Part shown: positions 17,102 to 19,208 of the stretch, piece after piece
How the letters are laid out: every line of letters begins with the position of its first letter
Position numbering within the stretch: position 1 is the stretch's first letter
Origin: Verrucosispora sp. NA02020
GTDB lineage: Bacteria > Actinomycetota > Actinomycetes > Mycobacteriales > Micromonosporaceae
Length of the DNA: 64,000 nucleotides
Assembly (NCBI RefSeq): GCF_013364215.1
Contig: NZ_CP054923.1
Location: forward strand, 6,324,001 to 6,388,000
Direction of reading: 5' to 3'
Notes under the pieces: generated by a model
The model's input: only the letters and a program-made list of their open reading frames with translations
Databases searched by the model: none
Told to the model about the DNA's origin: nothing
Made by a program: the position numbers and the translations under genes

Positions 17102-18355
17102 TCACTGCGCAGGTCGGATGGCGTCGCCGGACGCGCCGAGGCCGTCCCCCGGTCCGACGTGGGCAGCGGACGTGCCGAAGCCCTCGCCCGGTCCGGCGTC
17201 GGCGACGAACGCGCCGAACCGGTCACCCGGTCCGGCGTCGGCGGCGAAGCGCTCGGGGCGGAACGGGCGGCCGATGGTGTCGACGGTCGCCCCGGTCACC
17301 AGGTCGGTGATCAGGTCGGCGGTCACCGGGGTGAGCACGATGCCGTGCCGGTGGTGACCGGTGGCGACCAGCACGTCCGGCCGGCCCGGCAACGGACCCA
17401 GGATCGGGGCGTTGTCCGGGGTGCCGGGGCGCAGCCCGGCGATCGCCTCCACCAGGTCGTACTCGGCCAGTTCCGGCAACAGATCGGTCGCGGCACGCAG
17501 CAGTCGCAGCACCGCGCCGGCACCGACCGCCAGATCGGAGCGCTCCTCGACGGTCGCCCCGACGACCACCTCACCGTCGTCGCGGGGCACCAGATAGACG
17601 TGCTCGCCGTCGGCGTACCCCCGGATGACGTGCCGGAAGCCCGGCGGACCGCCGTCGGGCGCGCGCAGCCGCAGCACCTGGCCCTTCACCGGGCGGACCG
17701 GCAACCCGGTGAGGGCGGCCGCGCCGCAGCCGGCGGCGATCACGGTCACCCGGGCGCGGACGTCGGCCGGTGTCCGCACCGGCTCCGGGACCACCGTCGC
17801 ACCGGCCCGCTCGGCGGCGAGTCGCAGTGCCGGCACCAGGCGGCGCGGGTCGACCTGGTGGTCGGTGGCGGCGAGCGCCCCACCACGGACCCGGACCGCC
17901 AGCGCCGGCTCGCGGTCGCGCAGCTGCGAGGGGCGCAGCGGCGTCACCGGCAACCCCAGTCCCTGCTGGTACGCCCAGAGGCGACGCGCCTCGGCGAGGT
18001 CGTCGGCGGTGAGCCCGACCATCAGCGTGCCCTCGGTGCGGTAGCCGATGTCGGCGCCGGTCGCCTCGGTCAGCTCGGCGGCGAACGCCGGCCAGCGGGC
18101 GGCCGACTCGGTGAGCAGGGCGGTCAGTTCCTGCTCGCCGAAGTACGCCTCGGCCACCGGCGCGAGCATCCCGGCGGCGACGTGCGAGGCACCCGAGCCG
18201 GGCGCGGGATCGTGCACCACCACCCGCAACCCGCGCGCCGCACAGCGCCAGGCGATCGCCAGCCCGATCGGCCCCCCACCCACGACAGCTACGTCGGGTG
18301 TAAGGAAGGGCCCCCTACTAACGCCTGCGGTAGAGGAAGGGTCCCCTGCTAACAC
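17102..18355 (-). CDS. thiO: Glycine oxidase ThiO
   Basis: A 417-residue FAD enzyme that oxidises glycine to the imine needed for thiazole formation, the aerobic alternative to ThiH. The dinucleotide motif [15 protein letters not shown] starts near residue 20, and [11 protein letters not shown] near the C-terminus matches the DAAO family. The only plausible start is the GTG at 18353-18355: GGAG lies 7 bases upstream and the codon overlaps the thiE stop. Residues 2-19 ([18 protein letters not shown]) are encoded by a 58-bp interspersed repeat and are not normal ThiO sequence. The usual short Met-Pro-Asp beginning seems to have been replaced. Confidence 0.93.
18298..18355 (-). repeat. 58-bp interspersed repeat, copy A (inside thiE/thiO junction)
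   Basis: On the minus strand this reads GTGTTAGCAGGGGACCC, then TTCCTCTACCGCAGGC, then a second GTTAGNAGGGGNCCC unit and TTCCTTACAC. It is thus about two tandem 31-bp units. By eye about 50 of its 58 bases match copy B at 19151-19208, which lies in the opposite orientation. It supplies the thiE stop codon (TAG at 18349-18351) and the first roughly 19 codons of thiO. Confidence 0.9.
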
Positions 18356-18975
18356 GTCAACGCTCCGATCAGCTCCGCCGCGACGCGAGCCGGATCGGCG
18401 GCGGCCGAGAGCACACCGACCACCGCCACCCCGTACGCCCCGGCGGCGCGCAGCGCGGGCACGTCCGCCACCGTCACCCCGCCGATGGCGAACACCGGCA
18501 CGGTGACCGCCTCGGCCACGGCCCGCAGCCCGGAGACGCCGATCGCCGGCGGCAACCCGTCCTTGGTGGTGGTGGCCCGGCACGGACCGACGCCCAGATA
18601 GCTCGCGCCGGCACCGACCGCCTCGGTGGCCGAGGCCGGTTCGCGGGCGGTGGCCCCCAGCACGGCGGCCGGGCCGAGCACCTGCCGCGCCGCCGCGACC
18701 GGCAGGTCGTCCGCGCCGACGTGACCACCGGCCGCGCCGGTGGCCAACGCCACGTGCAGCCGGTCGTTGACCAGGCAGTCGACCGCGTACGGCGCGCAGA
18801 GGGCGAGGACCCGTCGGGTCAGGTCGTACGCCTCGCGGTCGGTCGCGGAGTCCTCGACCCGGACCTGCACCAGGAGTTCGGTACGGGCCACCGGCAGTAC
18901 GGCCCGGAGCACGGCGAGCGGATCCCGCCCGGGCCGGGTGTCGGTGATCAGATGCAGTCGTCCCAGGGACGGCAC
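18349..18975 (-). CDS. thiE: Thiamine phosphate synthase ThiE
   Basis: A 208-residue TIM-barrel enzyme joining HMP pyrophosphate and thiazole phosphate. It keeps the NDR motif (CLVNDRLHVAL), GHVGADDLP, the pyrophosphate loop GPCRATTTKDGLPP and FAIGGV. The usual QLREK segment reads VQVRVED, so the conserved lysine is replaced. It is the first gene after the TPP riboswitch; the GTG start is preceded by GGAGGAGAG, the last part of the riboswitch expression platform. Its last codon and stop fall in repeat copy A. Confidence 0.93.
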   Translation of the reverse strand: MPSLGRLHLITDTRPGRDPLAVLRAVLPVARTELLVQVRVEDSATDREAYDLTRRVLALCAPYAVDCLVNDRLHVALATGAAGGHVGADDLPVAAARQVLGPAAVLGATAREPASATEAVGAGASYLGVGPCRATTTKDGLPPAIGVSGLRAVAEAVTVPVFAIGGVTVADVPALRAAGAYGVAVVGVLSAAADPARVAAELIGALTC

Positions 18976-18984
18976 GGCAACTCT

Positions 18985-19072
18985 CCTCCCTGCGCCGGCA
19001 TTACCCGGATCAGGTTCGACGGTCGGGGGCTCACAGCCCCCCTCTCAGCCCGGTCGACCGGGCTCCCGTGGG
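18985..19072 (-). promoter_or_regulatory. TPP riboswitch (THI element)
   Basis: The minus strand carries the conserved TPP aptamer: GGGAGCCC arm, GGGCTGAGAGG (the CUGAGA box), a GGGGGCTGTGAGCCCCC variable stem, ACCGTCGAACCTGATCCGGG (the ACCUGA box) and GTAATGCCGGCGCAGGGA closing P1. It ends immediately before the GGAGGAGAG ribosome site of thiE, so ligand binding probably hides that site and stops translation. It should control the whole thiE-O-S-G-E-D-C operon. Confidence 0.97.
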
Positions 19073-19086
19073 TCACTTGCGTGGCC

Positions 19087-19115
19087 ACCGTACGACAGAT
19101 CCGCTGACCTGCCAA
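19087..19115 (-). promoter_or_regulatory. Promoter of the thiamine operon
   Basis: On the minus strand a -35 hexamer TTGGCA (19110-19115) and a -10 hexamer TACGGT (19087-19092) are separated by exactly 17 bases. The predicted start would be about 8 bases further on, just ahead of the TPP aptamer. Both hexamers fit the vegetative actinobacterial sigma factor. Confidence 0.75.
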
Positions 19116-19150
19116 GGTGCGTCCCGCCAGGGGGGCCTGCTCCGCCGCCG

Positions 19151-19208
19151 GCGTTAGGAGGGGTCCCTTCCTCTACCGCAGGCGTTAGCAGGGGACCCCG
19201 CCTTGCAC
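19151..19208 (+). repeat. 58-bp interspersed repeat, copy B (upstream of thi promoter)
   Basis: A second copy of the element at 18298-18355, in inverted orientation to it. Both contain the identical core starting CCCTTCCTCTACCGCAGGCG. Internally it has two roughly 31-bp units of the form GTTAGNAGGGGNCCC. It lies 36 bases upstream of the thi -35 box and 234 bases before the start of the large secreted-protein gene. Together the two copies bracket thiE, its riboswitch and its promoter. Confidence 0.9.

Follow-up and report, generated by a model that had tools for sequence, protein, structure and literature searches.

A family of short palindromic repeats is either abundant or nearly absent across one genus of the Micromonosporaceae, and its abundance goes with a single gene that is itself bracketed by the repeat. 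We reached this family from a 64,000-nt stretch of Verrucosispora sp. NA02020 (contig NZ_CP054923.1, positions 6,324,001 to 6,388,000; hereafter the window), in which two inverted copies, A and B, enclose a thiE-like gene and copy A runs into the adjoining thiO-like gene. Our preferred reading, to which we assign a probability of roughly 0.6, is that a family resembling the repetitive extragenic palindromic (REP) repeats is maintained in Micromonosporaceae by this one gene, which encodes an AbiEi-like part joined to a predicted nuclease, and that the copy at thiE/thiO is an old in-frame insertion. The evidence consists of the association between gene and repeats, the bracketing of the gene, a thi copy whose sequence follows its species, the location of copies beside genes and the decay of the thi copy in repeat-poor genomes. 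From these we infer that the protein spreads or maintains the repeats through binding, cleavage and copying.

The repeat family and the gene it brackets

Each element contains two 20-bp palindromic half-units 31 bp apart, for a total of about 57 bp. Within the window, the half-unit GTTAGNAGGGGNCCC has four matches at zero mismatches, every one inside copies A and B, and five when up to two mismatches are allowed (shuffled mean 1.55, shuffled maximum 4). Across the 7.28-Mb genome, the half-unit pattern has 216 matches and the full pattern 191, against zero for either reversed control. The original prediction of an interspersed repeat was thus correct, and the sequence is spread genome-wide instead of being confined to thi operons. 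Both counts take in a duplicated 149-kb stretch of the assembly: at G000:C1 ~0.18-0.48 Mb, outside the window, five 3-kb loci (L006-L010) are identical to L011-L015, 149,334 bp apart, a tandem duplication that is either real or an artefact.

The genus as sampled includes Micromonospora, Salinispora and Verrucosispora, and among its 160 genomes the family is bimodal. Fifty-one genomes carry at least 20 half-unit matches (maximum 356) and are termed repeat-rich below, while 104 carry four or fewer (81 with none, 23 with 1-4) and five carry 5-19. Six Salinispora genomes (G062, G114, G115, G084, G015, G145) have zero matches. A sample of the family gave matches in 33 of 150 genomes and 9 of 44 genera, and one of the class in 2 of 296 genomes, both of this genus.

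The partner gene was found among the genes enclosed by pairs of elements in the (-,+) arrangement, where two of 20 pair regions from G021, G017 and G073 held the same protein. A search of the genus recovered this nuclease-like protein in 51 of 160 genomes at E ≤ 1e-20, comprising 46 of the 51 repeat-rich genomes and 5 of the 109 others (p = 1.3e-28), and the association persists in independent pairs (10.9 same, 0.0 opposite, median p = 0.001). Under the strict pattern, elements lie on both sides of 44 of the 51 genus orthologues, on one side of three and on neither side of four (39, 3 and 4 for the first 46 loci, plus five more, all two-sided); those four are flanked by variant repeats, one of them weak. 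The carriers outside the repeat-rich set are G087 (19 matches), G089 (12) and G100, G132 and G137 (0). In the last three, an element-like variant outside the pattern lies on both sides of the gene, scoring 22, 14 and 33 against a null of at most 15 drawn from 64 repeat-free ThiO loci; the G137 variant recurs at two further places in the 260 kb sampled and nowhere in 400 kb of G061. Four distant paralogue loci lack a bracket, and an element lies at the 3' end of one of these. Beyond the genus, a flanking inverted repeat resembling the element was recognised by eye at 18 of 21 orthologue loci, two of them at or near the null (G262, 15; G244, 16). Among non-genus genomes, a close orthologue (E ≤ 1e-50) occurs in 8 of the 12 with at least five matches, compared with 23 of 122 others.

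In the window's genome, the gene begins at position 6493433 of contig C1, about 105 kb beyond the window, between genes for a dihydrouridine synthase (Dus, PF01207) and a class II tRNA synthetase. Flanks of these two kinds adjoin 51 and 50, respectively, of the 51 genus orthologues and 9 and 11 of the 21 elsewhere, and on the strength of these shared neighbours the gene looks vertically inherited and often lost. Its product combines an AbiEi-like fold with a winged-helix N-terminus and a Vsr/EDxHD PD-(D/E)XK fold with conserved candidate catalytic residues, in which E202, D236, D249 and H254 are invariant. The partner gene encodes an AbiEi-like, putatively DNA-binding part fused to a homing-type nuclease fold of predicted activity. 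Databases label the protein after the AbiEi antitoxin; no adjacent AbiEii toxin gene was found, the neighbours in this genome being the Dus and synthetase genes. Elements beside the nuclease-like gene may also be translated: upstream of the gene in the window's genome (L365), the frame before the Dus domain contains GVSRGPFLT, and an orthologue from another genus (P0089) has a repeat-like peptide as its C-terminus.

The location of copies was tallied in a set of 122, with genes called by a home-made codon score. Forty of these came from loci picked for close pairs, and the other 82, distinct copies from loci of the window's genome, G061, G017 and G073, were tallied apart. Of the 82 copies, 49 have an edge that overlaps a gene 3' end or comes within 12 nt of it, five have an edge within 12 nt of a gene start, and three fall within an open reading frame (ORF). 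Flanking coding strands are convergent for 35, tandem for 40 and divergent for 7. At 25 right and 6 left edges the element itself contains the gene stop; at 7 right and 2 left edges the stop lies precisely 3 nt beyond the element. Element ends read GTTAG/GTTAA and GTAAGG; among the copies listed, most begin with GTTA(G/A), GTAA or GTGA and finish with TTAC, TTGC or TTTC. Copies inside ORFs were seen at L338:923-2221 (G017), L016, L241 and one place in the G061 tile; the L338 ORF is a major facilitator superfamily protein (PF07690) containing the repeat translation PSYTPGVNKGPFL.

Close neighbours also have a preferred orientation. Among the copies listed, 23 of 27 pairs no more than 2.5 kb apart are (-,+), versus 42 of 201 beyond 10 kb (p = 1.7e-12). 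Copies B and A are one such pair, so the inverted arrangement first noticed around thiE stands, as a single case of a general tendency.

An old element at the thiE/thiO junction

An inverted-repeat search of the window returned copies A and B as arms at 18298-18353 and 19153-19208 (56 nt, 88% complementary, spacing 799 nt), each with an internal unit spacing of 31 bp. This agrees with the original prediction of an inverted 58-bp pair bracketing thiE, each copy built of two units of about 31 bp (Table 1). A riboswitch had likewise been placed inside the pair, and RF00059 does fall between copy B and thiE, which puts copy B upstream of it. An element oriented like copy B also occurs close to the corresponding position in G061, G007, G003, G139 and G017. 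The name thiO is that of the original prediction; thiE rests on the same source and on the position of the gene between the riboswitch and thiO, and relatives were aligned.

Table 1. Features of the thi locus (window positions)
Feature	Position	Strand	Remarks
Copy A	18298..18355	-	Gives the thiE stop (TAG, 18351-18349) and thiO codons 2-19
Copy B	19151..19208	+	Orientation opposite to copy A; upstream of the thiamine pyrophosphate (TPP) riboswitch
thiE-like gene, 208 aa	18349..18975	-	Stop codon within copy A
thiO-like gene	17102..18355	-	GTG start; codon 2 is TTA, from copy A
TPP riboswitch RF00059	18970-19079	-	63.3 bits (gathering score 54.3); between copy B and thiE

Copy A was expected to supply both the end of thiE and the beginning of ThiO, and the sequence agrees. 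On the minus strand, thiE closes with ...ACG TGT TAG, the TAG falling in the repeat, and the GTG start of ThiO (18355-18353) overlaps both the thiE end and the copy A edge. The GGAG proposed to serve that start is present 7 nt upstream. Fifty-four nucleotides of copy A are translated as ThiO residues 2-19, and no alternative start codon was seen from the repeat to the flavin adenine dinucleotide (FAD) motif.

ThiO was sought in 151 genus genomes and matched in 150, from which 130 junctions were parsed; the 20 matches left out include some fragments, and about half are full-length. Scored against a consensus, the junction spacers form two groups: 38 at 0.63 or above, which have the element, and 92 at 0.52 or below, which do not and which contain zero half-units in either orientation with up to two mismatches allowed. 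The element-free junctions give ThiO other N-termini, as an insertion would lead one to expect. ThiE is scarcely altered, as most element-free genomes end thiE at the same place; in 72 of the 92, TGC TGA ends thiE and GTG CTG opens ThiO. Where the element is present, the spacer from thiE measures 48-54 nt in 35 of 38 genomes (G006, G150 and G081 have the element elsewhere in the junction), and the ThiO frame is open through it in 37, in support of the idea that an insertion was kept with its frame open. At L190 (G021), a G run in the element has lost 1 nt, which puts ThiO out of frame and is either a true frameshift or a sequencing error.

The thi element follows the family as a whole. Of the 130 genomes, 33 are repeat-rich with the element, 86 are neither, 6 are rich without it and 5 are poor with it (Fisher p = 1.5e-19; independent pairs, median p = 0.016). 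In all five repeat-poor genomes that have the element, it is decayed (scores 0.63-0.83). By eye, an element occupies the same junction in a genome of another genus (G168, 196 matches), a decayed one is present in G194, and none was seen in eight further outgroup genomes. One other genus shares the occupied site and a second retains a decayed copy, which makes the insertion at the junction old; the original insertion idea did not include such an age. On the locus tree, the thi element switches state no fewer than 16 times; parsimony cannot give direction, and we read the changes mostly as losses because decay is visible.

Sequence also tracks species. When profiles were built for six species from 12-40 genome-wide copies each, the thi copy was likeliest under its own species' profile in five of the six, most clearly in G006 (-18.6 vs -25.6 bits) and G073 (-28.0 vs -35.9). 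The translated extension tells a similar story in its third-codon-position GC content: where the element is present, this is 0.63 in 33 repeat-rich genomes and 0.79 in five repeat-poor ones; in 50 genomes lacking the element it is 0.88, compared with 0.94 in the ThiO core. Where the family is alive, something therefore preserves the repeat sequence in the face of codon usage. Of the 38 genomes with the element, 30 have a TTA codon in the ThiO extension (at codon 2 in 28), compared with 0 of 92 without it, and the ThiO core has 4 TTA in 44,850 codons. At window positions 18350-18352, this rare leucine codon is ThiO codon 2, as in 27 other genus genomes. It could make ThiO translation depend on the UUA tRNA; a bldA reading is tempered because, according to PMC4255298, its developmental role may not extend beyond Streptomycineae.

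Proposed mechanism and its alternatives

The most economical causal account has the nuclease-like protein working on the repeats: it would cut and copy them or, at a minimum, bind them. Persistence of the family would depend on a dedicated single-locus gene bracketed by two inverted elements. The AbiEi part would bind the palindromes, the nuclease part would cut or nick at elements or target sites, and repair templated by another element would let the repeats spread and stay alike. Insertions would survive chiefly at gene 3' ends, because both ends of the element carry stop codons. One ancient insertion between thiE and thiO, its frame open, would have become the ThiO N-terminus. For as long as a genome retained the gene, its thi copy would remain close to the family consensus, and loss of the gene would set every copy drifting. 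In its fullest form, which we hold tentatively and at somewhat under even odds, this is a repeat family that lives by a homing-type nuclease and not a transposase, whose copies co-evolve and die together with the gene, and for which the repeat-encoded ThiO start and its TTA codon are a side effect.

Several observations weigh against our reading. Mobility was not seen: of ten sites in the window's genome with syntenic flanks, eight are also present in the G061 tile, one has suffered a partial deletion there and the last is missing (an eleventh site, where synteny breaks, was excluded). The 122 copies have no clear target-site duplication; across 486 combinations, the largest excess was 2 nt at the very edges (16 vs shuffled mean 6.7, maximum 12), which we read as an extension of the inverted repeat. 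For the thi copy of G061, the profile of a sister species is a marginally better fit than that of G061 itself; for the G021 copy, its own profile and that of G017 are nearly tied. Tested alone, the link between the nuclease-like gene and the thi copy is weaker (independent pairs, median p = 0.06), and three of the nine junction copies scoring 0.63-0.83 belong to gene-bearing genomes. Five repeat-rich genomes (G063, G005, G136, G050, G065) have no orthologue at E ≤ 1e-20; several are drafts, in which the gene may be lost or may lie in an assembly gap. The gene is in two overlapping pieces in G064, G080 and G157 and a fragment in G104, with repeats still numerous. Outside the genus, four genomes with at least five matches (G194, G284, G243, G255) have no close orthologue, and G196, G202 and G210 have orthologues whose flanks show no repeat above the null. 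Paired arms of the thi orthologues do not covary (72.3% paired vs 72.5% shuffled).

Selection for an RNA hairpin, which pairwise views suggestive of compensatory changes had hinted at, was accordingly dropped: among 28 thi orthologues, one pair changed on both sides (shuffled mean 1.7). Arm pairing among paralogues is in slight excess in G000 and G061 (1 and 0 of 500 shuffles as high), with no excess in four other species. The CGTTAG core and the location after stop codons prompted a comparison with integron attC sites; the core-site arrangement does not fit, and no integrase search was made. Common linkers inside close pairs were unconvincing on inspection by eye.

The alternative that survives best, in our estimate an unlikely one, makes the protein a DNA-binding regulator or chromosome-organising factor with an incidental nuclease part. 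The repeats at 3' ends would then be selected functional sites (terminators, mRNA 3' ends or architecture) that drift when the factor is lost, and the bracketing would be autoregulation. AbiEi proteins do bind inverted repeats in their own promoters, according to PMC7319586, and the preference for gene 3' ends and the sites mostly shared by sister species would suit such a role. So would the conservation of the thi element in 30 repeat-rich genomes, which equals that of the ThiO core (mean pairwise identity 0.857; 17 ThiO windows, 0.71-0.91). Against this, the four nuclease residues are invariant, the bracket lies on both sides of the gene and not at the promoter alone, and the locus tree requires no fewer than 21 switches into or out of the repeat-rich state, a pattern more in keeping with a dispensable element than with essential sites.

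An ordinary family of REPs or miniature inverted-repeat transposable elements (MITEs), moved by an unrelated transposase while the co-inherited nuclease-like gene merely holds old insertions, seems improbable to us. The architecture and location do resemble GTAG REPs, whose ends, as described in PMC3733652, often give a stop codon to neighbouring ORFs, and the gene keeps to one conserved locus. The terminal inverted repeats of MITEs also have a counterpart here, as the element arms pair (-49.7 kcal/mol in L060, for example; weaker in several species). The one transposase family tested, Y1/REP-associated tyrosine transposase (RAYT; PF01797), has no match in the window's genome and is not associated with the repeats in the genus (11 of 51 repeat-rich vs 34 of 109 other genomes), and a RAYT/IS200 partner was rejected on these grounds. 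Moreover, the association of the nuclease-like gene holds in independent pairs, and in other genera the flanking repeat has changed in sequence yet still brackets the gene. Equally hard to credit is a thiE/thiO hot spot hit by many independent insertions: it draws on the at least 16 state changes, which parsimony cannot divide into gains and losses, and on a real preference for the position directly after TGA (22 of 122 copies have TCA precisely 3 nt beyond the right edge, 18 of them called-gene stops, vs 0-5 at other offsets), but the shared start relative to thiE in 35 of 38 genomes, the decayed intermediates at the same site, and the occupied and decayed sites in two further genera speak for inheritance.

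If the link between gene and repeats is causal, maintenance by the nuclease-like gene would be a second, independent answer to how short bacterial repeats persist for so long: a family with a REP-like life style goes with a protein unrelated to RAYT, and concerted evolution of dispersed repeats becomes testable by deleting one gene. It also suggests that some actinobacterial proteins of the AbiEi-DUF559 type are not antitoxins. The thiE/thiO copy, for its part, is an orthologous, genus-wide marker of repeat retention or decay in coding sequence. Among the top-listed papers of the open-licence PMC literature, we found no account of this repeat family or of a link between an AbiEi-type nuclease and dispersed repeats; a string search turned up a single paper, on an unrelated matter.

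Comparison with known systems

Where the partner of a bacterial palindromic repeat family has been identified, the family mostly relies on RAYTs, Y1 HUH tyrosine transposases encoded by a single vertically inherited gene flanked by repeats. Like REPs and their paired form, REPINs, the family described here is a high-copy set of short palindromic half-units, often paired, with tens to hundreds of matches per genome, that lie in intergenic positions chiefly downstream of genes, provide stop codons from their ends and flank one partner gene. Unlike them, it has no GTAG or CGTC tag at the palindrome foot among the copies listed and no association with PF01797, and its partner is unrelated to HUH transposases. 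In its way of working it resembles a REP/RAYT system, down to lasting vertical descent and recurrent loss, but having neither the tag nor the Y1 enzyme it does not belong to that class.

The partner protein likewise departs from its nearest relatives. AbiEi antitoxins of type IV toxin-antitoxin systems (S. agalactiae, 6y8q; M. tuberculosis Rv2827c, 1zel) lack the extra C-terminal nuclease-like domain and the dihydrouridine synthase and class II tRNA synthetase neighbours found here, while the Vsr-like/EDxHD endonucleases (I-Bth0305I, 3r3p; Vsr, 1cw0; NGO0050, 3hrl) lack the AbiEi fusion and the bracket of dispersed repeats. In Rickettsia palindromic elements (RPE), a palindromic repeat is translated in frame within a protein, as copy A is in ThiO. 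Such in-frame insertion is routine there, unlike here, where it accounts for three of 82 copies; the thi copy is the exception, a rare translated member whose frame survived.
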